Shown here piece by piece: positions 3,463 to 48,454 of a DNA stretch of 49,364 nt. Source of the stretch: a virus; the IMG/VR virus record IMGVR_UViG_3300036717_000070, positions 1-49,364 of that record; one strand, given 5' to 3'. The translations under genes and the position numbers were made by a program. Positions within the stretch are counted from its first letter, which is position 1. Every line of letters begins with the position of its first letter. The notes beneath the pieces are model-generated. The model worked only from the letters and a program-made list of their open reading frames with translations. It ran no database searches and was not told the origin of the DNA.

Positions 3463-3467
3463 GTCTT

Positions 3468-3770: not shown

Positions 3771-3776
3771 AGTCAT

Positions 3777-3804: not shown

Positions 3805-3806
3805 CG

Positions 3807-3828: not shown

Positions 3829-3857
3829 CAGACTGACCTTTGGAAAGGGTGTGATAT

Positions 3858-5923: not shown

Positions 5924-5966
5924 GGTAATCGATGTTGACCGTTTGACTGGGTGATCTTTTGGTACT

Positions 5967-5981
5967 GGGCGGCAGACTGAC
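5967..5981. repeat. 15-base direct repeat flanking the mod cassette (partner 3823-3837)
   Basis: GGGCGGCAGACTGAC occurs at 3823-3837 and again at 5967-5981. The left copy is the 5' arm of a complete terminator; the right copy has the 5' arm only. The 2.1 kb between them hold mod and the convergent plus-strand gene. Confidence 0.75.
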
Positions 5982-6002
5982 ACGACTGAATTTTACGTTG
6001 CC

Positions 6003-6814: not shown

Positions 6815-6817
6815 TTA

Positions 6818-7795: not shown

Positions 7796-7796
7796 G

Positions 7797-8651: not shown

Positions 8652-8656
8652 GTGTT

Positions 8657-18316: not shown

Positions 18317-19032
18317 TGATACTCGACAAAGCAACGACAATGCGTCATGCATGGTCGAGTGCCCGGCAACGGCATGGCGCCAAGCGGCAACCATCCCGCT
18401 TCGGTAATCTCGGGACACGACGGGGAAAACTCGGTGGCGTGGCAATGATGGGCAGCGTCGTCTAACACGTTCCGCTCAAGCGTGAATACCGCGGCATGCG
18501 ATTCACGCCGCGCGTTGGAGAAGGCGCCCCAGCCGCTGGCCGCATACAACTCGGATCGCGCGCCGATTTGTGCCTCGCTCTTGTTCCCGTCGACAATATC
18601 GGACACGAAGTCCGCCAGTCTGCCGAAGTTGTAGTTTAGCGTGGCGCCAACCTTGTCCTTCACGCCGGTCAGTACCGCGCCGATCTTTTTCGTGAAGTTG
18701 CGGAACCCGCCGGACGCCAGCGCGCCCACGGCGACGTATTCGCTCTTGACCGTGCTCGCCATCGCCTGAACCCAGTCGGGCAGCGTCTCCGGCTCGATTG
18801 CGTATCGAGCCAGAGAACGGACCTCTTTCTTGCACGCCTCAACAAACTCGCTCGCCAGTTTTCGCACGTCAACGGGCTTGTCGGCGCCATCGACGTACTT
18901 TTGCTTCTTGGCGTTCCAGCGGAAGCCGATCAGGTCCAGAAGGCCACGGAACGGCTTGGCGATCAGGCGTTGCCAGAGCGAGCGCGCCGGCGGGAAGTCG
19001 GCGCCCGTGATGTTGGGATCGGGCGGGATCAT
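18313..19032 (-). CDS. Phage Mu F-like minor head protein
   Basis: A 239-residue protein whose C-terminal part has the Mu F/SPP1 gp7 signature: LERNVLDDAAHHCHATEF, then PLPGTRPCMTHCRCFVEY (the PxH...CRC-type ending with conserved Cys/His). The N-terminal two thirds are helical. The full-length family member is longer, so this is a short form consisting mainly of the C-terminal module. Such proteins are minor capsid components and often carry effector domains; here the topoisomerase IB protein follows by a stop-start overlap as if split off from it. Confidence 0.75.
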   Translation of the reverse strand: MIPPDPNITGADFPPARSLWQRLIAKPFRGLLDLIGFRWNAKKQKYVDGADKPVDVRKLASEFVEACKKEVRSLARYAIEPETLPDWVQAMASTVKSEYVAVGALASGGFRNFTKKIGAVLTGVKDKVGATLNYNFGRLADFVSDIVDGNKSEAQIGARSELYAASGWGAFSNARRESHAAVFTLERNVLDDAAHHCHATEFSPSCPEITEAGWLPLGAMPLPGTRPCMTHCRCFVEYQ

Positions 19033-25102: not shown

Positions 25103-26428
25103 TCACATCAAAATGACGGCGCCTTCGCGGCGGGATAACTTGCGCTGCATACAGGCGTATCGCAGAGCATCGCAGGCGTCATCGTTCACTTTCATCGGCT
25201 CGTCTTTGGCGATCTTTCCGTCGGGCGCCGTCGCCCATGAATAGCATTCCAGTTCCTCTTCGAGACAGGTGGGTTGCTTGGCGTCGGCTAGATTCGCATC
25301 TTTTTCAACGAGTGAGTCTCGGAGAATGTAGAGTCGCGGTCGGTCGGCAGTTTTGCGGAATCGCAACGATACCGACTCGATTCCCAATCGCACTTCCTTG
25401 CGGGCTAAAAGTGTCGGGCCGAGTATCTTTTCCAGAGTGGCCCGGTCCTCGGCGTCGTGATCGGTCACGGTACATTCGTATCGCTCGCCGACGGACAGGG
25501 CGTTGATTTTCCCGGCGTGATCGCTGACGAGGCGACGGCTCATATACCACTGCCGGTAAACATACATCCGGTCGTCCTCGTCAAACGCCGCCCACAAACA
25601 AACAAACGGATGGACGTAGCCGAAGTCGATGGCTCGGATTCGTCGCCACGAGTCAGGAATTTTGAACGAATCAATAAGATGAATGTCCGGGTCATACTCC
25701 GGGTAAATCAGACCTTCAGCGGCGGCCCATCGGCCAAGTCGCAATCGCGCGTGACGTGTTCCCGTTAGCGCATCGAGCCGGGAAATGTAAACCTTCCCTC
25801 TCGGCGTCCAGCCCGAGCCATCCCAAAGAACCGGGTTGTCCTGGTGGTGGCTCAGTAGCCTCGTCATGCGACCGGAGTTTGCGCGAAGATTAAGCCAGTG
25901 ACCTGGGCCTGCTGGATTGCAGTCGGCGACAGCCTGCTGGAACGGCATCACGCCGTTGCGAAGTCTTGTTGTTAATTTTTCCCAGTCGTCTTCCGTCAGT
26001 TCCGTCGCCTCGAAAGCGGCGATCAGGTCATATTCAGTCGACATGATTCGGTCGGCGTTGTCCATGCCGCCGACGACGATCGATGATCCGTTGGGATACT
26101 CATACGATTGCCGAACTCGCCGAAGCGTTGAATGCACATCGGGATACAGGTCGGTGTTTTCGGGAATGACCTTGCTTTCATAGGTGACGAGCACCGATTC
26201 CGTCATTGACGCGCGAGTTTTTCGAACCAGCAGGGCGCGCGAGCCGGGGCACTTGAGCATCCAGCGATTGACCTTCTCCAGTACGGCGCGCGTCTTGCCG
26301 GTTCCCGCCGGCCCGGCGCAAAGAATCTCGGAGTCGCGGCAGGGGAAAAGAGACTTGGCGCCGCCTCGTGGTCGGTAGTGCCGAGATGCGTCACGTTGTT
26401 CATTTTGGTACTGACTCACTTGACTCAC
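25103..26428 (-). CDS. terL: Terminase large subunit
   Basis: A 441-residue packaging motor. Walker A GPAGTGKT (39-46), Walker B region YDLIAAFEATEL (133-144, ending in the catalytic Glu), and the RNase H-like nuclease with RAIDFGY (Asp 268), a central acidic TDHDAEDRAT, and KVNDDACDALRYACM near the C-terminus. It cuts concatemers and pumps DNA into proheads. Upstream on the same strand lies not terS but a plus-strand cassette, so its own transcription start must lie in 26429-26600 or the message must read through from terS past the convergent genes. Confidence 0.9.
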   Translation of the reverse strand: MSQVSQYQNEQRDASRHYRPRGGAKSLFPCRDSEILCAGPAGTGKTRAVLEKVNRWMLKCPGSRALLVRKTRASMTESVLVTYESKVIPENTDLYPDVHSTLRRVRQSYEYPNGSSIVVGGMDNADRIMSTEYDLIAAFEATELTEDDWEKLTTRLRNGVMPFQQAVADCNPAGPGHWLNLRANSGRMTRLLSHHQDNPVLWDGSGWTPRGKVYISRLDALTGTRHARLRLGRWAAAEGLIYPEYDPDIHLIDSFKIPDSWRRIRAIDFGYVHPFVCLWAAFDEDDRMYVYRQWYMSRRLVSDHAGKINALSVGERYECTVTDHDAEDRATLEKILGPTLLARKEVRLGIESVSLRFRKTADRPRLYILRDSLVEKDANLADAKQPTCLEEELECYSWATAPDGKIAKDEPMKVNDDACDALRYACMQRKLSRREGAVILM

Positions 26429-27311: not shown

Positions 27312-27354
27312 GCCGCGATGTCGCCCTTGGGCATCGCGGCTCCTCTTTATTTTC
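27312..27354 (+). terminator. Terminator between the convergent cassette B and terS
   Basis: Nine-pair arms GCCGCGATG (27312-27320) and CATCGCGGC (27332-27340) are followed on the plus strand by TCCTCTTTATTTT. It would end the cassette transcript. Confidence 0.65.
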
Positions 27355-27772
27355 CAGCGTCGTCGCCATCACTGATGTCCGCGAAACTCTTAATTGGCTT
27401 GCCGCCGGTGGTATGGTCGAACGCTTGTTTGGGAACGTACATGCCCGACATTTCCATGAGCATGCGGCGGTCCATGAACCCGTTTCGGCCTTCCTGCTGC
27501 GCCGTCTTTACCGATGCGTTAATGATCGATCCGACGTTGGATCGGATCATTTGGAACACCGCGTTCTTGTGCTGTTCCTTAAACCATGGGTCGGTCATTA
27601 TCCCGTAGAACCGGCTTTCACTTATCTTTGCCGCATTAAAGCGTTGTTCGTTGGTGGTGTCTGGCTGATTGAAGGCGGGATTGACCAAAACCGCCAATAG
27701 GTTTTGCTCGGCTCTCGTAAGCCTCCTATTTTCTCCAATTTTTTTTGGTGACTCTTCGTCGTGCTCTGCCAT
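27347..27772 (-). CDS. terS: Terminase small subunit (intact copy)
   Basis: A 141-residue protein with a basic N-terminal helix (KKIGENRRLTRAEQNLLAVL), a region NEQRFNAAKISESRFYGIMTDPWFKEQHK that fits the DNA-binding HTH of small terminases, and a Lys/Gln-rich assembly part. It recognises packaging sites and recruits the large subunit. Its first 21 codons contain the 33-base att core used by the integrative elements. The full coding sequence is restored here, while a second copy of its 5' end remains at 37551-37612 on the far side of the islands. Confidence 0.75.
   Translation of the reverse strand: MAEHDEESPKKIGENRRLTRAEQNLLAVLVNPAFNQPDTTNEQRFNAAKISESRFYGIMTDPWFKEQHKNAVFQMIRSNVGSIINASVKTAQQEGRNGFMDRRMLMEMSGMYVPKQAFDHTTGGKPIKSFADISDGDDAGK
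27711..27743 (-). other. att core, left copy, inside terS
   Basis: The 33-base sequence starting GCTCTCGTAAGCCTCC and ending CCAATTTTT encodes KIGENRRLTRA of terS on the minus strand. The same core stands at 30226-30258 and 37551-37583. The left and middle copies agree; the right has G for A at one position. Here the homology with the right copy extends about 55 bases further, across the terS start codon. Confidence 0.8.
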
Positions 27773-27778
27773 GATTTA

Positions 27779-27952
27779 TTACCAGAAAATCCCGCCACCC
27801 TTGTCCGGCTTTGGCAACTTCCGCATGCCCTGGGGCGTGTCGCCGTCGCGCATGCACCGCAAGGTTTTGCTGTCTGGCGCCCACGCGCAGTAGTCCGGTT
27901 TCTGGCATGCGGGGCAAGGATCGGCTTTCGTAACGGGCTTCCATCCACTCAT
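27779..27952 (-). pseudogene. Truncated DUF3987 protein, N-terminal fragment
   Basis: Starts MSGWKPVTKADPCPACQKPD with a zinc-binding CPAC...C motif, the same head type as the intact gene at 32833-35277, but breaks off after about 51 codons. The last residues GGGIFW and the stop come from the end of the phage gene at 37619-38365. It is related to but not identical with the intact gene, so the left element was a different lineage in this part. Confidence 0.75.
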
Positions 27953-28200
27953 TGGTCGCCCCCGTTCATGGCCCGTTCGGCTATCCACCGTTCCACGGTC
28001 TCGCGACGCCAATAACGGACCTTTTTGCCCAGCGAGATGTCCGGCCTGGGGAATTGCCCGGCAGACACCCAACGGTGTAGCGTGCGCTCGTCGGCAGGAA
28101 CGTAGAACTTGCGGATGAGTGCCAGGGTGAGGAGTGCGGGCGGTTGTTGCCGCTCCGCGACGGCCTGAGCCTGCCGATGCAAAAGGGTTTCACTGGACAT
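27949..28200 (-). CDS. Excisionase-like HTH protein, left element
   Basis: An 83-residue AlpA/excisionase-type winged helix: LLTLALIRKFYVPADERTLHRWVSAGQFPRPD is the DNA-reading part (given here as ALIRKFYVPADERTLHRW), followed by KKVRYWRRETVERWIAER. It would bend DNA for excision or regulate the element. It differs from its right-element twin (35274-35525) at several residues in the second half while the first 25 residues are the same. The stop overlaps the DUF3987 fragment start. Confidence 0.75.
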   Translation of the reverse strand: MSSETLLHRQAQAVAERQQPPALLTLALIRKFYVPADERTLHRWVSAGQFPRPDISLGKKVRYWRRETVERWIAERAMNGGDQ

Positions 28201-28399
28201 GCGGCACCGCCTTCCCGGTTTCGGCAGCGCGAAGCGCCAGTGCCTTTTCCACGGCGTCGGGAGCGAACAGCAGGCGCCCGCCGGCGTTCAAGTGGGGAAT
28301 GTGCCCCGCCAGGGCTTCAGAGCGAAGCCACCGGGTAGGCACCCGTAACCGCCGGGCCATGCTTGCCAGCGGCATAAGTGTCGGTGTGTTTTCATTCAT
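28190..28399 (-). CDS. Small HTH protein, left element
   Basis: A 69-residue product, MNENTPTLMPLASMARRLRV then TRWLRSEALAGHIPHLNAGGRLLFAPDAVE (shown in part: TRWLRSEALAGHIPHLNAGG), a MerR/excisionase-type winged helix in minimal form. It overlaps the next gene by 11 bases and the 444-residue gene by 4. Likely a recombination directionality factor or regulator. Identical to the gene at 35515-35724. Confidence 0.7.
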   Translation of the reverse strand: MNENTPTLMPLASMARRLRVPTRWLRSEALAGHIPHLNAGGRLLFAPDAVEKALALRAAETGKAVPHVQ

Positions 28400-29730
28400 G
28401 CCCCCAGCGTAGAACCCGCCCTGTGCGCCATCCGTGCGCCGTTTGCGCGCCGTCTGTGTTTATCCCGGCATTCCGGTTTTTTCAGCCGGTAGATGCCTTG
28501 CTGCACCTTCACAATCATCGTTCTCCACGCTTCATGCCTTCGGAACGTGGAAGCAAGGCGGTAGTTTTCCGCGTTCGATCCGATCACTTGGCCGATTGTC
28601 TTCTCAGACAGCCCAAGCCCGCCCTTTTCGTACTCCGCCCACAAACACCCGACGGCCTTCGCCTGCAAACCATCATCGAATGTGTATTTCGTCCCAAACC
28701 AGTTGACGGTTGTGAAGTCCGCCGAATGGCTCGGCCCTGCGGCCACTGGATCAGGCTTGCCGCTCGCAGCGTCGGCAGGCGCCGGCCCTGTCACCGCCGC
28801 GTCTGTCAGGCGCTTGGCTTCTATCCACACCCGTTTCATTTCCAAGCCAAAGGCGTTCCAGTCCGCCTTCCGGTTTCGGTGATAGCGTTCCGACGGGGGA
28901 AGGAATTTGCACGCCAGCAGCACGTCGGGCATCGCCAGCCGCACGGCCTCGGACAGGTCATTCAACTGCTGATACCATTCCTCGCAAGTCTTTTCGTGCA
29001 TCGCCATGACACGAACGTGATGCTTGCGCACGTCATCAGCGCCTTCCACGCCGTTGGCCTTCAGCCGGTACGCATCGCCCGTCTCATCCTGTTCCTGCCA
29101 CCACCGGCGCGCCGACTCGGCATAACAGTTCATCAGGGAGCTGCAATAGTTGCTGATGCCATATAGCCGGTTAAGCGGGTGCGCCAGGTCATCGGCCCGG
29201 CTCAAGGCGGGGAAGCGGGCTTCAGTTTCGGCAGGGCCGGCAGTGCCCTCAACGGGCAACATTGCCCAGCGGCACCAATCTTCGATCCTTCGGACGCCCC
29301 GCGTCGTGTTGTCATCAAATTCAAAGTCATTGAGAACCGAAGATGCATGCGTATGAAACGCTCGCACGCGATTGTGAATCTCCCGGTAAAGTTCCAGTTC
29401 GTCGGCTGGCGTTGGGCCGTGCCCACGCACTCTTTTGCGCAGTTCGCCCAGCCCATAGTTCACCCGCTGGATGATCTTGGCGGGCGTGTCCCACGGTTCC
29501 AAGCGGGGCTTATGCTTGGCGGCATAGTCCCTCAACGCCCATTGCACTCGCGCGGTGTCCGCATCGGAATACGGAATGCCATCGGGCGGCAACGGCAACG
29601 CGCCGACGTTCTCCCATAGTCGAGTTCTTTCATCGGCTGCGCGGGCTTCAAAATCGTCGATGGCCTGGGTGTGCCGTTGGAGCTTCCGCCGCTCCGCAGG
29701 GGTTATCGTGAAACGCGGGGCTTCTGGCAT
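28396..29730 (-). CDS. Element protein of unknown function, 444 residues, left copy
   Basis: First gene of the element's minus-strand operon, with AGGTG before the ATG. The N-terminal half is helical (RKLQRHTQAIDDFEARAADE, ELELYREIHNRVRAFHTHAS). The C-terminal third (VNWFGTKYTFDDGLQAKAV, CLWAEYEKGGLGLSEKTIGQ, RLASTFRRHEAWRTMIV) looks like a winged-helix module of the sort I associate with proteins of planctomycete islands. No catalytic motif is visible. It is duplicated unchanged at 35721-37055, so selection or very recent duplication keeps the copies the same. Confidence 0.7.
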   Translation of the reverse strand: MPEAPRFTITPAERRKLQRHTQAIDDFEARAADERTRLWENVGALPLPPDGIPYSDADTARVQWALRDYAAKHKPRLEPWDTPAKIIQRVNYGLGELRKRVRGHGPTPADELELYREIHNRVRAFHTHASSVLNDFEFDDNTTRGVRRIEDWCRWAMLPVEGTAGPAETEARFPALSRADDLAHPLNRLYGISNYCSSLMNCYAESARRWWQEQDETGDAYRLKANGVEGADDVRKHHVRVMAMHEKTCEEWYQQLNDLSEAVRLAMPDVLLACKFLPPSERYHRNRKADWNAFGLEMKRVWIEAKRLTDAAVTGPAPADAASGKPDPVAAGPSHSADFTTVNWFGTKYTFDDGLQAKAVGCLWAEYEKGGLGLSEKTIGQVIGSNAENYRLASTFRRHEAWRTMIVKVQQGIYRLKKPECRDKHRRRANGARMAHRAGSTLGA

Positions 29731-30225
29731 GGTTCACCTGTCGGTAAAAACGGGTCGATCCGGCGGGCGGGCGGACAGGTGAAGAACGCCACGACCGCCA
29801 GGATCGCTTGACCGAACCGCCGGCCGGCGGCCCGATCTTCCCGAAGTCATTGTACCCTGTCGCCGAACCTCCGCGAAACATTGCGCGGGCTTGCGCCACA
29901 CTGGTGCATGGTGCATGTTGCGCGGAGGGTCTCAAAATCCAAAAAGTCAAGAAGCGCGGCCGAAAACAACCCGAGGGTACGTATGCCCCTCCACAGTACC
30001 TTGGCACCTTGCCCAATGCCCGCCAGCCGCACGCCGCCGCACGCTCGGGCCGTCAACCGGTTTCTGGCGGGGTCGATCTTCCCGGTCGTCCTGGGGCGAG
30101 GCGGCGCCCGTGCGTAAGTAAGTCACTTCGATGCGGTGTGTGGTTGCCGTTCAGTCACCGGCCAAATTTTGGCTTCGGGAGAACCTATGGGGCGTAGGCC
30201 TGGGCGTGAGCCGAGTAAACCCGCC
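29731..30225 (-). promoter_or_regulatory. Noncoding control region at the element end, left copy
   Basis: About 500 bases without a convincing gene, repeated at 37056-37550. On the minus strand TACAAT (near 29853-29858) is a candidate -10 for the operon. Three TTGCGC hexamers (29881, 29891, 29918) surround a tandem GGTGCATGGTGCATG, which could be arm sites for integrase or sites for the excisionase-like proteins. The att core follows at once. Confidence 0.5.
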
Positions 30226-30258
30226 GCTCTCGTAAGCCTCCTATTTTCTCCAATTTTT
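30226..30258 (-). other. att core, middle copy, at the element junction
   Basis: Same 33 bases as in terS. To the right it continues into unique element DNA (GCGCCCTTTTTGCC) and the integrase gene; to the left it joins the end of the left element. It is the hybrid site between two elements integrated in tandem. Confidence 0.8.
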
Positions 30259-30376
30259 GCGCCCTTTTTGCCTACCTTTGTCAAAGGCGATGGCAAGCAC
30301 TGGCCGCCAGCCGCTGCCATCGACTGCCAACGGCAAGGTTGACGCACCTTTCCGGACTTTTGTTCGGTTCGCATCT

Positions 30377-31963
30377 TCAGGTATTCCCGTTTTTCGGCGT
30401 CAGTTTCACTACGCCGACGATCATTTTGCGAACGTCCGCCGGCAGGTCCGGCCATGCGTCTACGATGCCCTGCAAATCGGCATCGGCAACCATCGGCGGG
30501 CATTGTGTTGGTGACGCTTTTGGTGCGCCCGAAGTCGAAACATGCGGTTTTCTGGCGGTTTCCCGCATGTTTTCCGTAGGTTCAAGTCCTACATGGCGCA
30601 CATTCACCCCATCCCCGCCGGACGGGGTTTTTTGTTGCCTATCCATGCCATCCAAAAGGGTTAACGGTATTTCGGAGTGCCCCGTCGGCTTGCCGATGGA
30701 TGCCGAACAATACCCTATCCGGGCCGATGAAGTGGTGACGCTTTTGGTGCGCCCAGCCGGCAAGGGGTTGGTATTTCCAGCTTCCACCGGGGCGTCATTG
30801 GTGCCTGTTGCTTTGTTCGCCCGGGGTTCGCTCCCCGGCAACGGCAGCTTCTCAACCGCGCCGGACAGGTTGAACACGCGGGCATCGGTGTACGTCCGCA
30901 TGGTTTGCTTCATGTCGGTGTGCCTCATCAGGGCCATGGCTTCGCGGGGCATCACGCCGGCTTTGCTCAACAACGTGCCGTAGGTGTGGCGAAGGGCATG
31001 GAAGTCCGCGCGCCGGCCATCGCTGTCTTTCCAGTCGATGCCCGCTTCCGTCAGCCATGTCCGATGTTGATCCATCGTCGGCGTGTCGGGGAATACCCGC
31101 TCATCGTCGCCGGCTTCACCCCGCAAGTCCTTCAACATCGCCGCCAGGTCCGCCCGCACCGGCAGTTCGTCGGCCCGACGTGCCTTCGTAGCCGCCGCCC
31201 GCAACGCCAGGAACGGCATCGGGGCATTCAGCCGCACATCGGCCCATTTCAGGTCCGCCGCCTCTTGCCGTCGCAACCCGGTGGACAGGATGAACCGATA
31301 CAGCGTCTTGTGCGGCTCCGGTATCACCGCCAGCAACCCCGCCAGTTGTTCGGCCGTCAACGCCCGCCGCTCGCGCCGCACGTCGGCGGTTTCGTCCAAT
31401 TGCTCCATGCCCGCCAGCGGGTTCACCGCCAAGCGTTTCCGCTTCACTGCCCATTTGCAGAAGGCTCGCAAGGTTTCATGGTATTGGTTGATCGTGCGCG
31501 GGCCGATCCGCCCATCTTCCGACTCGGCTTGCTTCTGCTCTATCGGCGTCTCGCGCCACCGCGCGAAGGCATCGGCGGAAATGTCCGCCAGCAACTTCCA
31601 CCCGCACAACTTCAACAGCTTGGCCAGTCGCTTTTCCACGTTGTACGTGTACTTGTCATCGCGCCCCAGCGCCCGAAGATCGGCAACATAGTCGGCAATG
31701 TGTCCAGCCAGGGCCTTGCCACGATGCGCCTTGAACGGGTCAATCAGCCCTTCCACGCCCTGGGACTTGTTCCGTTCCAGCCTTGCCGCCAGTTGTTGAG
31801 TAGCGCCCTTGTCCGTGTGTCCTTTGACGATCTTCGGCTTGCCGTCCACCATGATCTTGATGGAATAGAACCGGCTTTCCGCCCACGTCGCCCCCGGCGT
31901 CTCTTTCGAGCATCCCCGGCCTTGCCCATTCACCCATCGACCACGCTTAAAGATGCTTGCCAT
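30377..31963 (-). CDS. int: Tyrosine recombinase (integrase)
   Basis: A 528-residue tyrosine integrase. The N-terminal part binds arm sites; a core-binding SAM-like domain spans about 80-180; the catalytic residues are in STGLRRQEAADLKW (Arg 231), AATKARRADELPV (Lys 260), FHALRHTYGTLLSKAG (His 322, Arg 325), RHTD (His 348) and QTMRTYTDAR (Tyr 358). The start at 31963 has GCAGGTG upstream. The C-terminal 150 residues are extra and low in similarity to the family; they include HVGLEPTENMRETARKP (458-473), the typical antisense reading of a tRNA 3' end. It lies 120 bases from the middle att core, as expected for the element's integrase. Confidence 0.9.
   Translation of the reverse strand: MASIFKRGRWVNGQGRGCSKETPGATWAESRFYSIKIMVDGKPKIVKGHTDKGATQQLAARLERNKSQGVEGLIDPFKAHRGKALAGHIADYVADLRALGRDDKYTYNVEKRLAKLLKLCGWKLLADISADAFARWRETPIEQKQAESEDGRIGPRTINQYHETLRAFCKWAVKRKRLAVNPLAGMEQLDETADVRRERRALTAEQLAGLLAVIPEPHKTLYRFILSTGLRRQEAADLKWADVRLNAPMPFLALRAAATKARRADELPVRADLAAMLKDLRGEAGDDERVFPDTPTMDQHRTWLTEAGIDWKDSDGRRADFHALRHTYGTLLSKAGVMPREAMALMRHTDMKQTMRTYTDARVFNLSGAVEKLPLPGSEPRANKATGTNDAPVEAGNTNPLPAGRTKSVTTSSARIGYCSASIGKPTGHSEIPLTLLDGMDRQQKTPSGGDGVNVRHVGLEPTENMRETARKPHVSTSGAPKASPTQCPPMVADADLQGIVDAWPDLPADVRKMIVGVVKLTPKNGNT
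30523..30601 (+). other. tRNA-like sequence in the 3' part of the integrase gene
   Basis: On the plus strand a 7-pair closing stem (GTGCGCC 30523-30529 with GGCGCAC 30595-30601), a 10-pair hairpin (AAACATGCGG 30538-30547 with CCGCATGTTT 30563-30572) and a perfect T-arm (GTAGG TTCAAGT CCTAC, 30576-30592) make a 79-base cloverleaf-like fold without a D-arm. A functional tRNA is unlikely; a remnant of a former tRNA attachment site is the simplest reading. Confidence 0.5.
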
Positions 31964-31999
31964 AACGTCACCTGCCTTTCACCTGTTGCCCCGGTCATC

Positions 32000-32029
32000 A
32001 GTGTACGTACGTTGCTACCTAGTTTGCAA
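32000..32029 (-). promoter_or_regulatory. Probable integrase promoter with palindromic operator
   Basis: TTGCAA (32024-32029) inside the end of the XRE gene, an 18-base spacer and TACACT (32000-32005). The palindrome ACGTACGT overlaps the -10 region and is a candidate site for the XRE protein. Confidence 0.5.
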
Positions 32030-32246
32030 CTATAATCGGCGTGATTGTGAGTCTACAACCGATTGCCTTTGCGACTCTCTCCGCCGTGTCCAGTTTCGGG
32101 ACACTCTCGCCCGATGCGATCCGCCCCACCTGGGATTGTGGCATGCCGGCCAGCTTGGCAATCTGATACCGCGTCACCCCGCGCCGCTCGGCTCGCGCGA
32201 TCGCCTTGCGAAGATCATCCGCCACGCTCTTAATTCGCTTGCTCAT
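32019..32246 (-). CDS. XRE-family HTH regulator
   Basis: A 75-residue lambda-repressor-type HTH: GVTRYQIAKLAGMPQSQVGRIASGES is the classic helix-turn-helix (shown in part: TRYQIAKLAGMPQSQVGRI), followed by PKLDTAERVAKAIGCRLTIT. It is short, without a separate dimer or peptidase domain. It lies directly before integrase and probably controls it and the element operon. Confidence 0.85.
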   Translation of the reverse strand: MSKRIKSVADDLRKAIARAERRGVTRYQIAKLAGMPQSQVGRIASGESVPKLDTAERVAKAIGCRLTITPIIVAN

Positions 32247-32249
32247 CGG

Positions 32250-32450
32250 TCACCTGTCCTTTTCCATGTCATCAGCCACCCCCGGCCCTTCTCGTTTCTG
32301 TCCGTGCGGCGGATAACCATTGTCGGCCAGTTTGGCGTCAATGCACCGCAAACGGTAACACCGCAATGCCGCCTTCAACAACCGCCGTACGCGGACCTCC
32401 ACCGGCGGGCCGTCGCCTTCGGCTCGAAACGAGAGTATCCAGACGGTCAT
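32250..32450 (-). CDS. Small hypothetical element protein, 66 residues
   Basis: The product MTVWILSFRAEGDGPPVEVR continues with RLLKAALRCYRLRCIDAKL and a polar tail. Its start overlaps the stop of the TubC-like gene and it ends 4 bases before the XRE gene. I have the impression of similar small proteins next to TubC_N-like genes in other islands but cannot name a family. Confidence 0.6.
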   Translation of the reverse strand: MTVWILSFRAEGDGPPVEVRVRRLLKAALRCYRLRCIDAKLADNGYPPHGQKREGPGVADDMEKDR

Positions 32451-32836
32451 CGTCCGCCCCCTTCCATTGCGTCCGCCAGTTGCTCGAGCGCCGCCCGCTC
32501 GGCATCGGATCGGCTTGCCAGCTGAAAGTTACCAAAAGTGGCGTTTCTGATGAAATTCCCCAATTGTGTCAAAGTGGCACAATTGGACGGACATCCCAAC
32601 CATTCCCGAAGATCGGCGCGTCGATCGGCGTCGGGTTCCCTGCCGATCATCAGCCGGGCCGCGTCCTTCCACCGGCCCGCCAGGATCGCCAGCAGTTCCG
32701 GCTTACGGGCCTTCAATGCCGCCTTCACGTCCGGCGTCATCACCCCGGCGGGCGCGTCAAACGATAGGCGGTCATCCTCGGCGGACAGCAGCACGCCACG
32801 GGCTTGAAGATCGGCTAAGAGTGTCAGGGCGGTCAT
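32447..32836 (-). CDS. TubC_N-like docking domain protein
   Basis: A 129-residue protein. Its first 50 residues (TALTLLADLQARGVLLSAED, then LSFDAPAGVMTPDVKAALKA and KPELLAIL) match the TubC N-terminal docking domain known from polyketide and peptide synthetases and often found alone in mobile elements. The rest is a charged helical tail. Docking domains mediate protein pairing; the partner here is unknown, the neighbouring DUF3987 protein being the natural candidate because the genes overlap by 4 bases. Confidence 0.65.
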   Translation of the reverse strand: MTALTLLADLQARGVLLSAEDDRLSFDAPAGVMTPDVKAALKARKPELLAILAGRWKDAARLMIGREPDADRRADLREWLGCPSNCATLTQLGNFIRNATFGNFQLASRSDAERAALEQLADAMEGGGR

Positions 32837-35277
32837 AGCTCACCCCGCTCCCGGCCGTCGCCGTGGGAGTCATCGAAAAACAGAATATCCTTAGAAGTGT
32901 CACTGACAAAACTGACAGAAGGGGGTTTTGTCGGTTTTGTCGGTTCATCCCGTAAGGATATTTGAATTTTCGGGTTGATGGCAAACCGCGTCCGAGTCTT
33001 GTGCGCCGCCGGCTCGATTCGCTCTTCCAGCCAATGAAGGGCCAGCAGCACGTCGATAGCCGCTTCGGTGCGGTCCCTGTCCAGCCCGGCCCATCCGTTG
33101 CGGTAAATATCGCGTGCCGCGAACGGGTTGGACAGGTCGCCGGCCTGTATCCTTGCCGCCAGTAGATGGGCCGCCACGGCAGGCGCTTCGGTCACTGACG
33201 AGTACAGCCGCCGGGCGTGTGATTCCAGATACCCGCCCCACCCGATTGCCTTCTCGATTGCAGGCAGAGTCACCGGGCCGATACCGCCGTCCAGAAGATG
33301 AAGGATCAGGGCCAATGAAGGAATGAGGCTCCGGTACTTTGCCAGGTGCGATTCAACGGCCGGATGCAAGTCGCCGGCTCGCAACCGGGTTTCCAGTTCC
33401 AGCCGCCACGCATCAAAGGCATCCTGTGCGGCCGGATCGAACCGAATGAACGGCAGGGCATCGCGGTCAAAGTTGTCTCGCTCGGCTTGCACGTCGCCGG
33501 CCATCAATTTGTCGAGCCGTTCAAGGGCCGCGCTTGCCTTTGCCTTGGCATCGGCATCAGGATATCGATCCACGTTCACCCATGCCTTCGGCGCGTCGGG
33601 CCACACCGTCAATTGAAATCTCTGAATCAGCCCATCGTCGCCGCCGCCCCCGGCCACGGCGCCACGTAGATAGTCGGCAATCACTCCCGGCTGGATGCTG
33701 CCAACGATGCTCACGATGGCCGCTTCAATGTCCAGCGTGCCCCGGCCGATCCGGTCATAGGTGTAGCGCGAATCGCCGGCCCATGCCATCAAGTAGAAAC
33801 CCCTGTCCGCCTCATGGCCTTCCCGATCCATCGACCGCAAGAAACTGGCCAATTCATCGCCGAAGATCAAAATGCCGTTGGGGTTCTCTGCCAGGATCAT
33901 CCCCAGCTTTTCAACGGTCGTGTCGTTCACCATGTATCGCCGGCGCGTTGGCTCATCGGCTTCAGCGCCTGCCATCGCCTTCGCGGCCTGCGCGATAATG
34001 TCGGCGTCCTTCCCGTCCTTCACCGCCTGGGCAAGCTCGCTCTTGCGAACCCTCTTTGTCGCGTCGGCCACCGCCATCGCCGTCTCATGTTCTTCCATCG
34101 CCTTCGCGTACTCTTGCTTGGCTTCCACTTCCAACCGGGACAGGTATTTCAAGACCTCTTTCATCGCCGGCGTCTTCATTAATGAAGGGCGCCCGACGTT
34201 CATCCCGTACAGGTTGGCGACCACTTGCCAGTCATCCCGCCGTTTCGGGCGAATGGCCACCTTGCGGCCGATCATCGCCCCAGCCATCACCATTGCCGTC
34301 GCCGCGCAATAGTCCGGCGGACATTGCATCCGGGCGGAAATGTCGGCTATCCAGTCGTGAAGGGCATTGGGCAACAACGCGAAGTCAAAGGGCATCACCG
34401 CCGGCAGCCCGGCCGGCAGGGCTTGCGGATCGGGCCACGGCTCAACGGGTTCCACGTCTACCGCGTCAAGCCAGGGCATCGCGTCCGCCAGCGCAATGAT
34501 CCGCTCGGCAATCTCTTTCGGCTTGTCGCCTGGGTAGTCGGCAATGTACTCCACGATGTCCCCGCCGTCCGGCAGCCCCGGCAGCGCAACGATCTTCACC
34601 CGTGCGGGCGGGTCCAGCCGCATGAGGATCTTCACCACGTCGTGGGCGTACTTTCGGCCCGGCTCGTCATGGTCCGGTAGGATCACCACGTCCCGGCCCG
34701 CCAACGGGGTCCAGTCGGATTTGTCCGCCGATGATGAACCGTGCGCCGACGTTGTTGCGGACAACCGCAGCCCGCGCGCTGCGTCTGTCGCCTTTTCACC
34801 TTCCGACACCCACACCGTGCCAGTCGCCGGCAACTCATCACCTCGATAAATGGGCCACAATCCCGGCGGATCGCCGATGATCCATCCGGCATCGGTGCGG
34901 TGGATCGGGCGGCATTGCTTCGGCTCGCCCGGGACGTCCCACCGGCCCACGCGTGCCAGGTCACCGGGATATTTCCACGTCGCTACCAGCTTCCCGCCCG
35001 GAACATAGCACGCGCGGAATGCCGCCTCCGGCGTCGGGTAGGCTGTTGCGGTGGGCCTTGTGTCGCCCGATGCCTGAGGCTTCGGCCTATGGGCCTTTCC
35101 GATGTATGCAGTCGTGTGGCCGCTGCCGCCGGCCTTCCCGCCCACCTGGGTGACCTTCCCGTCATTCCGCCAGCACACCGCCGCCATGCCATCAGGCGCA
35201 ATCCGGCAGCGGTTCGTATGCGAGCAAACCGGGCATGGTCGATCTTTCGTGGCGCTGGGCCATTTGGTGTCGCTCAT
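32833..35277 (-). CDS. DUF3987 primase/helicase-like replication protein
   Basis: An 814-residue protein from the ATG at 35277 (overlapping the excisionase-like stop). It has an N-terminal zinc finger (CPVCSHTNRC...CW), a TOPRIM-like part (GTVWVSEGEKATDAARG near 165, VVILPDHDEPGRKYAHDVV near 210) and the DUF3987 ATPase core with a degenerate Walker A, NVGRPSLMKTPAMKEV (near 360), a Walker B-like GILIFGDELASFLRSM (near 455) and a C-terminal helical region. It very likely drives replication of the element. The left element holds only its first 51 codons. Confidence 0.82.
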   Translation of the reverse strand: MSDTKWPSATKDRPCPVCSHTNRCRIAPDGMAAVCWRNDGKVTQVGGKAGGSGHTTAYIGKAHRPKPQASGDTRPTATAYPTPEAAFRACYVPGGKLVATWKYPGDLARVGRWDVPGEPKQCRPIHRTDAGWIIGDPPGLWPIYRGDELPATGTVWVSEGEKATDAARGLRLSATTSAHGSSSADKSDWTPLAGRDVVILPDHDEPGRKYAHDVVKILMRLDPPARVKIVALPGLPDGGDIVEYIADYPGDKPKEIAERIIALADAMPWLDAVDVEPVEPWPDPQALPAGLPAVMPFDFALLPNALHDWIADISARMQCPPDYCAATAMVMAGAMIGRKVAIRPKRRDDWQVVANLYGMNVGRPSLMKTPAMKEVLKYLSRLEVEAKQEYAKAMEEHETAMAVADATKRVRKSELAQAVKDGKDADIIAQAAKAMAGAEADEPTRRRYMVNDTTVEKLGMILAENPNGILIFGDELASFLRSMDREGHEADRGFYLMAWAGDSRYTYDRIGRGTLDIEAAIVSIVGSIQPGVIADYLRGAVAGGGGDDGLIQRFQLTVWPDAPKAWVNVDRYPDADAKAKASAALERLDKLMAGDVQAERDNFDRDALPFIRFDPAAQDAFDAWRLELETRLRAGDLHPAVESHLAKYRSLIPSLALILHLLDGGIGPVTLPAIEKAIGWGGYLESHARRLYSSVTEAPAVAAHLLAARIQAGDLSNPFAARDIYRNGWAGLDRDRTEAAIDVLLALHWLEERIEPAAHKTRTRFAINPKIQISLRDEPTKPTKPPSVSFVSDTSKDILFFDDSHGDGRERGEL

Positions 35278-35525
35278 TTGACGGCGCTCCCTTCCGCCCG
35301 CTCGGCTATCCACCGTTCCACGGTTTCCCGCTTCCAGTAGCGCACTTTCCCGCCCATCGCAATGTCCGGCCTGGGGAATTGCCCGGCGGACACCCATCGG
35401 TGTAGCGTGCGTTCGCCAGCGGGAACGTAGTGCTTGCGGATCAATGCCAGGGTGAGAAGCGCGGGCGGTTGTTGCCGCTCCGCGACGGCCTGAGCCTGCC
35501 GATGCAAAAGGGTTTCACTGGACAT
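35274..35525 (-). CDS. Excisionase-like HTH protein, right element
   Basis: An 83-residue winged helix (ALIRKHYVPAGERTLHRWVS, GGKVRYWKRETVERWIAER). Twin of the gene at 27949-28200, from which it differs in the second half (H for K, G for D, MG for LGK). It begins the set of small regulators between the 444-residue gene and DUF3987 gene, with overlaps on both sides. Confidence 0.75.
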   Translation of the reverse strand: MSSETLLHRQAQAVAERQQPPALLTLALIRKHYVPAGERTLHRWVSAGQFPRPDIAMGGKVRYWKRETVERWIAERAEGSAVK

Positions 35526-35724
35526 GCGGCACCGCCTTCCCGGTTTCGGCAGCGCGAAGCGCCAGTGCCTTTTCCACGGCGTCGGGAGCGAACAGCAGGC
35601 GCCCGCCGGCGTTCAAGTGGGGAATGTGCCCCGCCAGGGCTTCAGAGCGAAGCCACCGGGTAGGCACCCGTAACCGCCGGGCCATGCTTGCCAGCGGCAT
35701 AAGTGTCGGTGTGTTTTCATTCAT
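35515..35724 (-). CDS. Small HTH protein, right element
   Basis: Same 69-residue product as 28190-28399, with the winged-helix core TRWLRSEALAGHIPHLNAGG. Overlaps both neighbours. Function as for the left copy; two adjacent HTH genes in one element may act as a pair, one for excision and one for gene control. Confidence 0.7.
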   Translation of the reverse strand: MNENTPTLMPLASMARRLRVPTRWLRSEALAGHIPHLNAGGRLLFAPDAVEKALALRAAETGKAVPHVQ

Positions 35725-37055
35725 GCCCCCAGCGTAGAACCCGCCCTGTGCGCCATCCGTGCGCCGTTTGCGCGCCGTCTGTGTTTATCCCGGCATTCCG
35801 GTTTTTTCAGCCGGTAGATGCCTTGCTGCACCTTCACAATCATCGTTCTCCACGCTTCATGCCTTCGGAACGTGGAAGCAAGGCGGTAGTTTTCCGCGTT
35901 CGATCCGATCACTTGGCCGATTGTCTTCTCAGACAGCCCAAGCCCGCCCTTTTCGTACTCCGCCCACAAACACCCGACGGCCTTCGCCTGCAAACCATCA
36001 TCGAATGTGTATTTCGTCCCAAACCAGTTGACGGTTGTGAAGTCCGCCGAATGGCTCGGCCCTGCGGCCACTGGATCAGGCTTGCCGCTCGCAGCGTCGG
36101 CAGGCGCCGGCCCTGTCACCGCCGCGTCTGTCAGGCGCTTGGCTTCTATCCACACCCGTTTCATTTCCAAGCCAAAGGCGTTCCAGTCCGCCTTCCGGTT
36201 TCGGTGATAGCGTTCCGACGGGGGAAGGAATTTGCACGCCAGCAGCACGTCGGGCATCGCCAGCCGCACGGCCTCGGACAGGTCATTCAACTGCTGATAC
36301 CATTCCTCGCAAGTCTTTTCGTGCATCGCCATGACACGAACGTGATGCTTGCGCACGTCATCAGCGCCTTCCACGCCGTTGGCCTTCAGCCGGTACGCAT
36401 CGCCCGTCTCATCCTGTTCCTGCCACCACCGGCGCGCCGACTCGGCATAACAGTTCATCAGGGAGCTGCAATAGTTGCTGATGCCATATAGCCGGTTAAG
36501 CGGGTGCGCCAGGTCATCGGCCCGGCTCAAGGCGGGGAAGCGGGCTTCAGTTTCGGCAGGGCCGGCAGTGCCCTCAACGGGCAACATTGCCCAGCGGCAC
36601 CAATCTTCGATCCTTCGGACGCCCCGCGTCGTGTTGTCATCAAATTCAAAGTCATTGAGAACCGAAGATGCATGCGTATGAAACGCTCGCACGCGATTGT
36701 GAATCTCCCGGTAAAGTTCCAGTTCGTCGGCTGGCGTTGGGCCGTGCCCACGCACTCTTTTGCGCAGTTCGCCCAGCCCATAGTTCACCCGCTGGATGAT
36801 CTTGGCGGGCGTGTCCCACGGTTCCAAGCGGGGCTTATGCTTGGCGGCATAGTCCCTCAACGCCCATTGCACTCGCGCGGTGTCCGCATCGGAATACGGA
36901 ATGCCATCGGGCGGCAACGGCAACGCGCCGACGTTCTCCCATAGTCGAGTTCTTTCATCGGCTGCGCGGGCTTCAAAATCGTCGATGGCCTGGGTGTGCC
37001 GTTGGAGCTTCCGCCGCTCCGCAGGGGTTATCGTGAAACGCGGGGCTTCTGGCAT
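35721..37055 (-). CDS. Element protein of unknown function, 444 residues, right copy
   Basis: Identical to 28396-29730. It is the first gene transcribed from the control region at 37056-37550. Aromatic, helical body with the C-terminal winged-helix-like part ending near ITMIV...YRLKKPE (seen as MIVKVQQGIYRLKKPE). The last 30 residues are basic (KHRRRANGARMAHRAG). The two identical copies mean double dosage of this product while both elements are present. Confidence 0.7.
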   Translation of the reverse strand: MPEAPRFTITPAERRKLQRHTQAIDDFEARAADERTRLWENVGALPLPPDGIPYSDADTARVQWALRDYAAKHKPRLEPWDTPAKIIQRVNYGLGELRKRVRGHGPTPADELELYREIHNRVRAFHTHASSVLNDFEFDDNTTRGVRRIEDWCRWAMLPVEGTAGPAETEARFPALSRADDLAHPLNRLYGISNYCSSLMNCYAESARRWWQEQDETGDAYRLKANGVEGADDVRKHHVRVMAMHEKTCEEWYQQLNDLSEAVRLAMPDVLLACKFLPPSERYHRNRKADWNAFGLEMKRVWIEAKRLTDAAVTGPAPADAASGKPDPVAAGPSHSADFTTVNWFGTKYTFDDGLQAKAVGCLWAEYEKGGLGLSEKTIGQVIGSNAENYRLASTFRRHEAWRTMIVKVQQGIYRLKKPECRDKHRRRANGARMAHRAGSTLGA

Positions 37056-37550
37056 GGTTCACCTGTCGGTAAAAACGGGTCGATCCGGCGGGCGGGCGGA
37101 CAGGTGAAGAACGCCACGACCGCCAGGATCGCTTGACCGAACCGCCGGCCGGCGGCCCGATCTTCCCGAAGTCATTGTACCCTGTCGCCGAACCTCCGCG
37201 AAACATTGCGCGGGCTTGCGCCACACTGGTGCATGGTGCATGTTGCGCGGAGGGTCTCAAAATCCAAAAAGTCAAGAAGCGCGGCCGAAAACAACCCGAG
37301 GGTACGTATGCCCCTCCACAGTACCTTGGCACCTTGCCCAATGCCCGCCAGCCGCACGCCGCCGCACGCTCGGGCCGTCAACCGGTTTCTGGCGGGGTCG
37401 ATCTTCCCGGTCGTCCTGGGGCGAGGCGGCGCCCGTGCGTAAGTAAGTCACTTCGATGCGGTGTGTGGTTGCCGTTCAGTCACCGGCCAAATTTTGGCTT
37501 CGGGAGAACCTATGGGGCGTAGGCCTGGGCGTGAGCCGAGTAAACCCGCC
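37056..37550 (-). promoter_or_regulatory. Noncoding control region at the element end, right copy
   Basis: Identical to 29731-30225, with TTGCGC at 37206, 37216 and 37243. It separates the element operon from the right att core in terS. Confidence 0.5.
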
Positions 37551-37612
37551 GCTCTCGTAAGCCTCCTGTTTTCTCCAATTTTTTTTGGTGACTCTTCGTC
37601 GTGCTCTGCCAT
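37448..37612 (-). pseudogene. 5' fragment of terS cut by the element
   Basis: From the ATG at 37612 the first 21 codons (MAEHDEESPKKIGENRRLTR) equal those of the intact terS at 27772; beyond the att core the frame runs into element DNA and stops at 37448 after 54 residues. It preserves the phage's original terS start next to its original upstream neighbour (7 bases after that gene's stop), showing where the element entered. Confidence 0.8.
37551..37583 (-). other. att core, right copy, in the terS 5' fragment
   Basis: 33-base core with G at 37568 where the other copies have A. About 55 further bases to the right (across the terS start and the end of the upstream gene) are shared with the left copy but not with the middle one. 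Confidence 0.8.
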
Positions 37613-37618
37613 GATTTA

Positions 37619-38365
37619 TTACCAGAAAATCCCGCCGCCCCAGCCGCCTATTGGGTTGATCCAGGGCGCCGAAATCGCGAGCGAACGGACGACACGCGGG
37701 GCGACGACGAAGCCTCGGTCTACGTCCGGAATCTTGTTGACGATGATTCGTTTGATTTGTTTTCGGGCTTCGCATTGCGACGCCGCGAATTGCCCGGCCA
37801 GGTTCTTGCCGTCGTCTTGGAGTCCGCGCTTTTGGTACAGCCAGCAGGCGGCAAGGATGGTCGCCTGCTGCGAGAGAATCGTGTAGGCCATCGACGTTGT
37901 GGGGAACGGCGGCGTTGTGGTTCCGGTCGGGTAGCCGAACCAGGCGAGTGCATAGTTGATTTCCGACTCGGCAAACTGGATGGCGCCGAGGTATCCCGTT
38001 GTGTCGGCGCCCGGCGTTTGGTTGTTGAGGTTGGACAGCAGGTCCATCGACACTTGGCCGAAAGCGTATGCGATAGCCGATTGCGAAGTCCAGAACCCCG
38101 AGACGCTGCCGACGGGCGGAGGCTGGAATGTGAATGACTGGGTGACTTGCCCACTAGTTTGCGTCATGTCCGCGGTGACGGAATAGAACGTCGGCGGTGG
38201 GTTCGGATCGGTAAACGTGGCACTCCAAACTCCGGCGGCGTTACTTAGTGAGATAGGCAGGGAGACGCCTACCGGCGCCATGTTGGTGTCGCTGCGGGTC
38301 AGAGCGGTGACAGTGACCGCGCTCATCGCTGTGAGCGGCTGGAGTGAAATGAGTACGTTGGGCAT
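37619..38365 (-). CDS. Hypothetical virion protein upstream of terS, Ig-like head and helical body
   Basis: A 248-residue protein. The first 85 residues are beta-like (VSLPISLSNAAGVWSATFTD, QVTQSFTFQPPP). The rest is helical, with LGAIQFAESEINYALAWFGY and AYTILSQQATILAACWLYQK, reminiscent of gp6/DUF1320-type head-tail adaptors, and ends GGGIFW. It lies last in the group of virion-surface genes and next to terS. A connector role is a guess from the helical part. Confidence 0.55.
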   Translation of the reverse strand: MPNVLISLQPLTAMSAVTVTALTRSDTNMAPVGVSLPISLSNAAGVWSATFTDPNPPPTFYSVTADMTQTSGQVTQSFTFQPPPVGSVSGFWTSQSAIAYAFGQVSMDLLSNLNNQTPGADTTGYLGAIQFAESEINYALAWFGYPTGTTTPPFPTTSMAYTILSQQATILAACWLYQKRGLQDDGKNLAGQFAASQCEARKQIKRIIVNKIPDVDRGFVVAPRVVRSLAISAPWINPIGGWGGGIFW

Positions 38366-45786: not shown

Positions 45787-47517
45787 TTATTCCTCCTTTA
45801 TGACGGTCCCGAATTCCTCGAATGTCATGCCGGCCCCGAATTTGTAGGCTATGCTATGGCCGGTTCCTTTCGCATGCCGAGCTTTGGATATTTTGATAGT
45901 CCGGTTGACCGTGACCTGCCCGTTTTCAGTGAGCGTGTTTTTGTAGTCGTGCGCTTTGATCCAAATGACTGTTTGTGTAAATCGGGTATACGCCGCACCA
46001 CCACCAACGTCGGCCAGCCCGTTTGATTTGTTCGAAAGTTTCGGATGCGTCACCAAAACCATCGAAGCGCCATTGTCTCGCAAAATCTTCTGAGTGTTGA
46101 TTACAAAATGCCGGTCGTCGTCCCACCTCTGCTTCCCAGTGTCGGCAGCCGTGATGGGATCAATGGCTATCACTCGGCATCCCTCTTTCGCTCGATCATT
46201 CACCCAGTCGGTTAAATCCGTCAGGTGCGGGAGATTCGCCGGCGGGGTCCATAATCTCGCGCCGAAAGAATCGATAAACGCGCGGTGTTTCTGCTCGATG
46301 GCGCTTGCGTCGGCGGGGTGGTCCCGAACCCACTCCCAGTCGAGCATTCTGGTGTTGCCCTCGATTTGCGCGATTGCCCGCAAAAGGTGCGAGCCATCTT
46401 CGTCGGCCTCGAGCTCATACATGGCGAACTGAACTCCCATCTTGTGCCACGCCCGAGCGGCTTGGAGAATCCAGAATGATTTACTCGCGGCCGGATCGCC
46501 GCAAACCGCGATGGACGAGCCAGGAAGCAGCGCGTGTGTGAGCCGCGACAGGTCGCGCCATTCTGCCGGCCATGGAGCGGCATAGCGTTTCCCGCTGATC
46601 GTGTCGGCAACGAGTTTTGTAACCTTGGCGCTCGGGCCTGTGCCTACCGCGTCGGCGACCACCTCAGCGACAGCGCGATATTCATCTTCACGATTCGAGA
46701 ATCCAAATTGAGAAAGGTAGTCTACGCAATCGCTTTTCTCTGGTAGCCCATGATCCTCGACGGAGACGAGCAAAACCTGCGGCGGGGGAGTGAGACGGCC
46801 CAAAGCCGCCGCCACGGCGTCGATGTACTTCTGCCCGTTCTCGTCAAAATCTCGCCACAGGATTACTTTTTTTCCGGCCAGGGGGGCCCAGTCGGCCTTG
46901 TCGGCGTTCATCGCGCCGGCTGGCGATGTCGTCGCCGTCCAGCCGGCCGCCCGCAAGGCCTTCACGCATTTTTCGCCCTCGACCACGATCACGGTGTCCG
47001 CGGCTCGCACGGCTGTTCGGTTGAAAATCGGCCACGGCTTCGGAGGCGCCTTCTGGACGTATCCGCCAGCCTCCGGCCGGGCCTGTATGAAACTTTTCTT
47101 GCCGGCGTTGTCGCGGCACCGAATCACGACCATGTCCACATTGCCTGTGTCGGGATTTGTGTAACGATAACAGTCCTCTACTTTCCAGAGCGCCGCCGCT
47201 GAATCGAGCATGGATTCGATAGTTGGGAAAATCCGTGGCGCCGGCGTGCGTGGCTCGTCTGACTCTTTCAGCAGCTCTTCCACTGATTTCCCGTTTGACA
47301 GCGCTCGAACGTCAATGACATCTTTGACGACTCCGCAGGCGTGGCACTTGTATCGCCATTCGCCCTTATCGTTTTGGTAGATCGATCCGCTCGGGTGATC
47401 GTCCTGGTGCCAGAGGCATCCGATGGTTTTTCCTTTGAACACGGCGCCGGCGTTTTTCAGCGCCTGTTCGAGCGCGCCCCGGTCAGAGTGAAGCCGCCGC
47501 ATTTCCGTTGTTTCCAT
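45787..47517 (-). CDS. Phage primase-helicase (CHC2 zinc, TOPRIM, RecA-like ATPase)
   Basis: A 576-residue replication protein. A CHC2-type zinc finger (GCLWHQDDHPSGS, YKCHACGVVKDVID) covers about 30-70; the TOPRIM part has DTVIVVEGEKCVKALRAAG (near 175) and VILWRDFDENGQKY (near 220); the RecA-like part has Walker A AVCGDPAASKSFW (near 340), Walker B CRVIAIDPITAAD (near 447) and MVLVTHPKLSN (near 483). It primes and unwinds phage DNA, like T7 gp4. It overlaps the initiator gene by 35 bases. Confidence 0.88.
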   Translation of the reverse strand: METTEMRRLHSDRGALEQALKNAGAVFKGKTIGCLWHQDDHPSGSIYQNDKGEWRYKCHACGVVKDVIDVRALSNGKSVEELLKESDEPRTPAPRIFPTIESMLDSAAALWKVEDCYRYTNPDTGNVDMVVIRCRDNAGKKSFIQARPEAGGYVQKAPPKPWPIFNRTAVRAADTVIVVEGEKCVKALRAAGWTATTSPAGAMNADKADWAPLAGKKVILWRDFDENGQKYIDAVAAALGRLTPPPQVLLVSVEDHGLPEKSDCVDYLSQFGFSNREDEYRAVAEVVADAVGTGPSAKVTKLVADTISGKRYAAPWPAEWRDLSRLTHALLPGSSIAVCGDPAASKSFWILQAARAWHKMGVQFAMYELEADEDGSHLLRAIAQIEGNTRMLDWEWVRDHPADASAIEQKHRAFIDSFGARLWTPPANLPHLTDLTDWVNDRAKEGCRVIAIDPITAADTGKQRWDDDRHFVINTQKILRDNGASMVLVTHPKLSNKSNGLADVGGGAAYTRFTQTVIWIKAHDYKNTLTENGQVTVNRTIKISKARHAKGTGHSIAYKFGAGMTFEEFGTVIKEE

Positions 47518-48454
47518 TTTTGCTTTCGGGTTTGGGTTTCCAAACGACGTGGAAATTTTCCATGATGTGCCGCTCGATTGCGTAGTCGTCTCTGCCGGCG
47601 GCGCGCTCCGCGGCCACGACCTCTTCGACCGTCACCGGCTCCCCATAGGCTATCCCATCCTCGTCTTCGCCGCACTTCGGACGCTGGGTCCATTTTTCGT
47701 CTTCGAGCCATCGGTGGATGCCGGGAATGAATTTTCCGCCCTCTCGGCGCCACTCTTCCGCGCACCACCACATGCGCACGCCTTTTATCACCTCGGCCGA
47801 AATGGCTTCAAGGCCGAGCTTCCTCCAAACGGCGTAGGCCCGTTTTTTACTGGATCGGTCCCGTCCGGTCGGCGGGGTTCGTTTCCAGAATTCGAGGAAG
47901 CCGGGAGGGTATTCGGGAGCCGGCGGTTTTTTCACGTCCAGTTCCCCCTCGGGGGATAGGGGGGTATTTGTATTTCCCTCTGCATCTGCCTCTGTATCTG
48001 CTTCTGCTTCTGCTTCTGCTTCTGCTTCTGCTTCTGTATGGGCTGACATTGCTGACTTTTCATGACCACGTTGACTGTCATTGACGGTCAATGACGAGTG
48101 TTTCCGTCTCTCTTTTCGCTTGGCATCACGGTTGTATTCTCGCCGTTCTTCCTCTTGCCGTATCTTGCGATATTGCTCCCACGTTGGCACGAAAAACTGG
48201 AACTGCCCCTCACGAATTAACCTTCTACCATCGCTGTCTTTAGATCGGCTTTCCGGATCAGGTTGTTCGAGCTTTGCAATCGTCTGGCGTATCGCGTCCT
48301 CAGGCTCGCCAATTATGGCCGCCAAGAGCTTGGGATTTAACTCGACTCGGCTGTCGACGGCGTGGGCGATCACGTAGCCCCAAACCGCAAAAGTGCATGC
48401 GCCAGCCCCGACCATTGACCCGGTGTACATCGACGCGAAGTGCTTTCCGTACAT
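47483..48454 (-). CDS. Replication initiator-like protein, winged helix with acidic repeat
   Basis: A 323-residue protein. The N-terminal 110 residues (VWGYVIAHAVDSRVELNPKL LAAIIG, DAIRQTIAKLEQPDPESRSK, FVPTWEQYRKIRQEEERREY; each shown in part) resemble the replisome-organiser winged helix. A linker made of TEAEAEAEAEAE repeats (about 142-158) and a C-terminal DnaD-like part (FLEFWKRTP, AYAVWRKLGLEAISAEVI, FIPGIHRWLEDEKW) follow. It probably loads the primase-helicase. AAAGGT stands before the ATG at 48454. Confidence 0.75.
   Translation of the reverse strand: MYGKHFASMYTGSMVGAGACTFAVWGYVIAHAVDSRVELNPKLLAAIIGEPEDAIRQTIAKLEQPDPESRSKDSDGRRLIREGQFQFFVPTWEQYRKIRQEEERREYNRDAKRKERRKHSSLTVNDSQRGHEKSAMSAHTEAEAEAEAEAEADTEADAEGNTNTPLSPEGELDVKKPPAPEYPPGFLEFWKRTPPTGRDRSSKKRAYAVWRKLGLEAISAEVIKGVRMWWCAEEWRREGGKFIPGIHRWLEDEKWTQRPKCGEDEDGIAYGEPVTVEEVVAAERAAGRDDYAIERHIMENFHVVWKPKPESKNGNNGNAAASL
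47998..48040. repeat. Hexanucleotide repeat in the initiator gene
   Basis: CTTCTG repeats (with CTGTAT variants at the edges) encode the Glu-Ala repeat of the linker. Repeat-number changes keep frame in steps of two residues. Confidence 0.85.

Follow-up and report, generated by a model that had tools for sequence, protein, structure and literature searches.

The analyzed stretch of DNA, referred to here as the window, is an entire IMG/VR record of 49,364 bp in which no end repeats were found. Outside the element region it is one tailed phage by gene content, with genes for the small terminase subunit (terS), the large terminase subunit (terL), the portal and the capsid. The minus strand carries terS, terL and the element genes alike, in the order: phage gene, terS start, core, element E1, core, truncated element E2, intact terS and terL (Table 1). 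The first gene of this series encodes 248 aa and ends in ..GWGGGIFW*, with its stop 4 nt before the terS ATG; its similarity to a head-tail adaptor family is very weak (phrog_195, 0.096). The identification of terS in the preliminary description holds, given its PHROG match, its tblastn similarity to the terS of a S. thermophilus phage (1e-9, from residue 17 on) and the terL and portal genes directly downstream. Elsewhere the record carries, near its left edge, a 391-aa TnpB/Cas12f-like ORF (647-1822, plus strand; PF07282 3.7e-22, PF01385 1.6e-9, PADLOC Cas12f 4.4e-46), beside which no CRISPR-like array was found; a 1005-aa ORF with long glycine-rich repeats (8657-11674, minus strand; repeats at 10793-11113), possibly a tail or fibre protein; in the late gene cluster, a 744-aa protein with a eukaryotic-type topoisomerase I catalytic core (16211-18445, minus strand; PF01028 7.8e-23); and, close to the right end, a 57-bp tandem repeat of 5.9 copies (48784-49117).

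Table 1. Features of the terS region and of the phage genes discussed in the text.
Feature	Position	Strand	Evidence or remark
Phage terL	25103..26428	-	phrog_2 6.5e-34; 46.8% to Thermobifida phage P1312 terL
Complete terS, 141 aa	27347..27772	-	phrog_2538 E 4.6e-8
Left core, intact attB within terS	27711..27743	-	phage both sides
90-bp direct repeat, E2-to-intact-terS junction	27711..27800	-	98% to 37551-37640
E2 primase N-terminus, zinc-finger-like CPAC..C	27779..28072	-	truncated at ..KPDKGGGIFW*
Truncated sibling element E2	27801..30225	-	without integrase
E2 HTH protein	27949-28200
E2 HTH protein	28190-28399
E2 444-aa protein	28396-29730
Element E1, one complete unit, 7,325 bp	30226..37550	-	core-to-core spacing
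Middle core, attP-type junction	30226..30258	-	118 bp past int stop; element both sides
E1 tyrosine integrase, 528 aa	30377..31963	-	PF00589 2.5e-17; phrog_1 5.3e-45
E1 Cro/CI-type HTH, possible repressor	32019..32246	-	PF01381 2.1e-10
E1 TubC_N docking-domain protein, 129 aa	32447..32836	-	PF18563 6e-17
E1 primase-helicase (DUF3987), 854 aa	32833..35397	-	PF13148 1.4e-89; phrog_2373 helicase, phrog_239 primase/helicase
E1 HTH_17 protein, 83 aa	35274..35525	-	PF12728 3.8e-5, below cut-off
E1 small HTH/excisionase-like protein, 69 aa	35515..35724	-	identical E2 copy matches phrog_1840 excisionase 1.7e-4
E1 444-aa protein	35721..37055	-	no Pfam or PHROG match
Right core, attL	37551..37583	-	C variant; 5' side phage terS, 3' side E1
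terS start retained at right end, through core's end	37551..37612	-	joined to element by right core
248-aa phage gene, directly upstream of terS	37619..38365	-	sequence
Phage primase-helicase	45787-47517
Phage replication initiator	47483-48454

The region is organized around a core of 33 nt, AAAAATTGGAGAAAA[T/C]AGGAGGCTTACGAGAGC, which comprises codons 11-21 of terS and translates to KIGENRRLTRA, residues 11-21 of TerS. A scan of the whole window allowing up to 3 mismatches found this core at the three sites in Table 1 only (0 expected by chance), in agreement with the preliminary description, which had recognized all three and their origin in terS coding sequence. It had likewise seen correctly that the right end keeps the terS start beside its upstream phage gene and that the left end carries a complete terS. 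At the right end the terS frame continues into E1 as a 54-aa ORF. Since this left gene is intact and has its native start, preceded by about 25 bp of phage DNA, its core is an undisturbed attB and not an attR. Alignment of the three core sites revealed no attR in the record; the integrase-side end of E1 is the attP-type junction to E2. The variable position is C in the right core (G on the plus strand at 37568) and T in both others; the right core was hence not copied from either of them. Recombination between the outer cores would yield a 39.5-kb sequence with wild-type terS, although any such repeat implies as much and nothing is proved by it.

The fold prediction for the 444-aa protein of E1 is unusable (mean pLDDT 42.5). 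The integrase has R231, H322, R325, H348 and Y358, all common to a relative on a Dechloromonas MAG contig (L016); these catalytic residues, the position of attP beside int and the 33-bp block of identity common to attB are together traits of a site-specific integrative element of the tyrosine recombinase type. E1 is compositionally foreign to the phage, with a tetranucleotide correlation of 0.898 as against 0.951-0.972 for the nine overlapping E1-sized phage windows used as the baseline. That a primase/helicase and an initiator are encoded by the phage itself further supports an integrated foreign element. The claim of a capsid-less element that encodes an integrase and a primase and attaches at the phage terS is upheld. 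An ATG lying 2 nt past the int stop, whose frame stays open across the core and on into terS, was considered as a replacement terS start supplied by attP; it is not counted as evidence because 50% of shuffles show an equal in-frame ATG.

E2 retains, besides the genes for its 444-aa protein and two HTH proteins, the start of a primase gene. Positions 28136-30242 are 100% identical to 35461-37567 (2,107 bp), past which identity to E1 suddenly declines, to about 80% for the second HTH gene and, at the protein level, to 41% over 39 aa for the primase N-termini. Because the sequences diverge beyond 2.1 kb, E2 is a sibling and not a second copy of E1, and the arrangement is not simply one circle read twice; the HTH/primase segment of E2 is unique within the record. 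Of the tandem first proposed, the core at the junction of two elements therefore stands, whereas a full second element does not, E2 ending near 27800. There it meets a 90-bp direct repeat that takes in the final codons of the 248-aa gene upstream as well as the start of terS and the core. The frame entering the left copy is that of the E2 primase (..KPDKGGGIFW*) and the frame entering the right copy that of the phage gene (..GWGGGIFW*); the junction lies inside GGCGGGATTTTCTGG, and both copies have GGCGGGATTTTCTGG and all that comes after it. To judge by its sequence, this left junction looks like illegitimate recombination, or a chimaera, at short homology. It is not an att event, and the rebuilding of terS amounts to an intact gene brought in via a second, non-att junction. 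The record does hold an intact terS, but the gene was restored through this junction, possibly an artefact, and not through an att site as first claimed.

The closest integrase found (37-38% identity) is that of another viral record, IMGVR_UViG_3300035099_000542 (L022), whose gene order of HTH_17, DUF3987 primase and integrase is that of E1 and whose integrase frame overruns a tRNA-Ser gene. L022 differs from E1 in this tRNA-Ser position and in extra recombination genes, and the other end of its record carries apparently non-phage genes including a transposase. More distant are the integrases of L016 (35%), the one integrase match in a scan of genome contigs, and of L015 (29%); none of the three relatives was observed to lie within a late gene of a phage. 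On the Dechloromonas contig the integrase gene (1390-2517) is split by a transposase-like ORF. L015 is a small record (1-9813) with a D5-type primase, a DUF5681 protein adjoining terL, an HTH protein and the distant relative of the E1 integrase, and is itself satellite-like or a phage fragment; a weak integrase and HTH relative turned up in this terL relative only. Neither terS nor the E1 primase had a match in the examined stretches of the terL relatives (38-56% identity). Scans of viral contigs with the integrase, terS, primase, 444-aa protein and E2 primase N-terminus singly returned no relatives, and an exact scan of viral contigs found no second record with the core, which is weak evidence because near-identical records may be excluded from the search. 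The 444-aa protein had no matches among 398 genomes of the phylum of the Dechloromonas MAG, an uninformative result, as this phylum need not be that of the host and the search lacked a positive control.

We consider it somewhat probable that E1 is a satellite-like integrative element at terS and that the composite goes back to an illegitimate recombination event involving a copy of the phage free of elements. The E1 tyrosine integrase would recombine attP with the 33-bp attB within terS of a tailed phage, leaving E1 oriented like terS within the phage genome and, presumably, passively replicated as phage DNA; the identical cores, the attL junction, the integrase with its catalytic residues adjoining attP and the foreign composition are the observations behind this step. 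Integration would part the terS start from the conserved domain, so that full TerS should need excision, which would restore terS, or a substitute start. A second, related element would have occupied the same site in this molecule. Its truncation within the primase gene and the arrival of a complete terS would both stem from that later recombination event, perhaps in a concatemer during replication. The composite would then carry elements and keep its packaging gene, a history suggested by the 90-bp repeat and by the left junction not being an att site. Counting against this reading are the missing attR, the failure of the searches to find either the core or the element in another record, the lack of signs of phage dependence such as common cos/pac DNA, and the nearest integrase relative lying beside a tRNA-Ser gene. 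Helper-embedded satellites (HE-PICIs) set a precedent, since they reside in late genes, may occur in tandem and can capture late genes intact (PMC10111431).

The tandem and the left junction may instead be an assembly or amplification chimaera, the attB/attP relation being real and the layout present in no single molecule, an alternative that we regard as doubtful. A mixed population of element-free phage, integrated phage, free circles and a second element would be the source, and attL, attP and attB without attR are what such a mixture offers; the short homology at the left junction fits as well, and the authors of the HE-PICI study suspected one of their tandems to be an artefact of partial activity (PMC10111431). 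Against a chimaera speak the C unique to the right core and the divergent E2 segment that occurs nowhere else in the record, and short reads would seldom resolve a 2.1-kb exact repeat within one contig. Because an attP made of terS coding DNA is not an expected product of assembly error, the attachment relation stands even if the tandem is artefactual.

A further question is whether E1 depends on the phage at all, as the preliminary description supposed in calling it a satellite that parasitises the phage genome; such dependence is putative. E1 and the phage have no cos/pac-like DNA in common (best match 16 bp). It is possible, if rather unlikely, that E1 is an integrative plasmid-like element independent of the phage, which would be merely one target or vehicle. 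Pfam and PHROG searches recognized no packaging or capsid-remodelling features in E1, and the L022 relative lies beside a tRNA-Ser target of chromosomal type, both in keeping with such an element. Accidental secondary sites of tyrosine integrases usually match over less than 33 bp, however, so that the attP-terS match exceeds what is usual for them, and E1 is oriented as the late genes are.

The left terS might also be a gene captured by E2 that redirects packaging as SaPI TerS does. HE-PICIs with late-gene capture next to their site have been described, and their founding member, 11capE, has an intact copy of the capsid gene that it interrupts (PMC10111431); here, the phage's own terL and portal come next instead of element DNA, and E2 has no integrase, which makes capture improbable. 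That E1 belongs to the phage itself, as a module for lysogeny and replication, is most improbable: no second integrase was seen among the window genes examined and L022 has a like gene set adjoining recombination genes, but E1 is foreign in composition, genes for a primase and an initiator are present elsewhere in the phage, and a phage with both attP and attB would be expected to rearrange itself.

With E1 read as a satellite-like element, its closest counterparts are the HE-PICIs, satellites in prophage late genes, including the terminase large subunit gene, first described for 11capE in prophage 50icd of E. coli NRG857c (PMC10111431). The idea of a satellite residing in a phage genome was consequently not new with the preliminary description, having been published in 2023 (PMC10111431). 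Like these satellites, E1 has an integrase, a small HTH regulator and a primase inside a phage late gene, co-directional with it (attL lies inside terS and all E1 genes are on the minus strand), and HE-PICIs, too, include tandems and elements with an intact backup copy of the gene they interrupt. PICIs in general combine int, an AlpA-type regulator and a primase in one direction and have no virion genes. E1 has int and a primase among unidirectional genes; the primase is of the DUF3987 type, and the E1 and E2 HTH proteins give weak HTH_17 and excisionase matches, with AlpA at only 0.069 (E2 copy). The differences, however, are substantial. The best BLASTP match between the E1 and 11capE integrases has an E of 1.9, and PF13356 (Arm-DNA-bind_3) was not detected in the E1 integrase; the primases, DUF3987 in E1 and D5-type in 11capE, show no similarity; int lies at the 3' end of E1, beside the middle core, whereas int-alpA-primase of NRG857c lies beside the 5' fragment; and the doubled TGTATTGC motif that flanks the HE-PICI attP has no counterpart in the window even when 3 mismatches are allowed. 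Given the integrases, primase type, int placement and doubled motif, E1 is not an HE-PICI member. It is furthermore smaller (7.3 kb as against 10-20 kb), and its site is the terS of a non-lambda-like phage. A search of the open-access literature found no paper on terS as the attachment site of such satellites.

Satellite-like elements and small terminase genes are also tied in SaPIs and other PICIs, which may carry terS; the gene here differs in being the phage's own and the attachment site. Provirophages, virus parasites integrated in giant-virus genomes, are similar as parasites of a virus inside that virus's genome but have eukaryotic hosts and unrelated genes. By analogy, E1 resembles a helper-embedded satellite in function, with a putative satellite role, though its integrase and its phage belong to lineages unrelated to those of the known examples. 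It is unlikely, though conceivable, that a helper-embedded lineage unrelated to HE-PICIs and specific to the terS 5' end controls the start of packaging, with the terS of the composite expressed from element genes. If the arrangement is real, residence in helper late genes has evolved repeatedly, by way of different integrases, and extends to a phage unrelated to lambda. Since terS starts DNA packaging, a switchable insertion would let the element control what is packaged and when.
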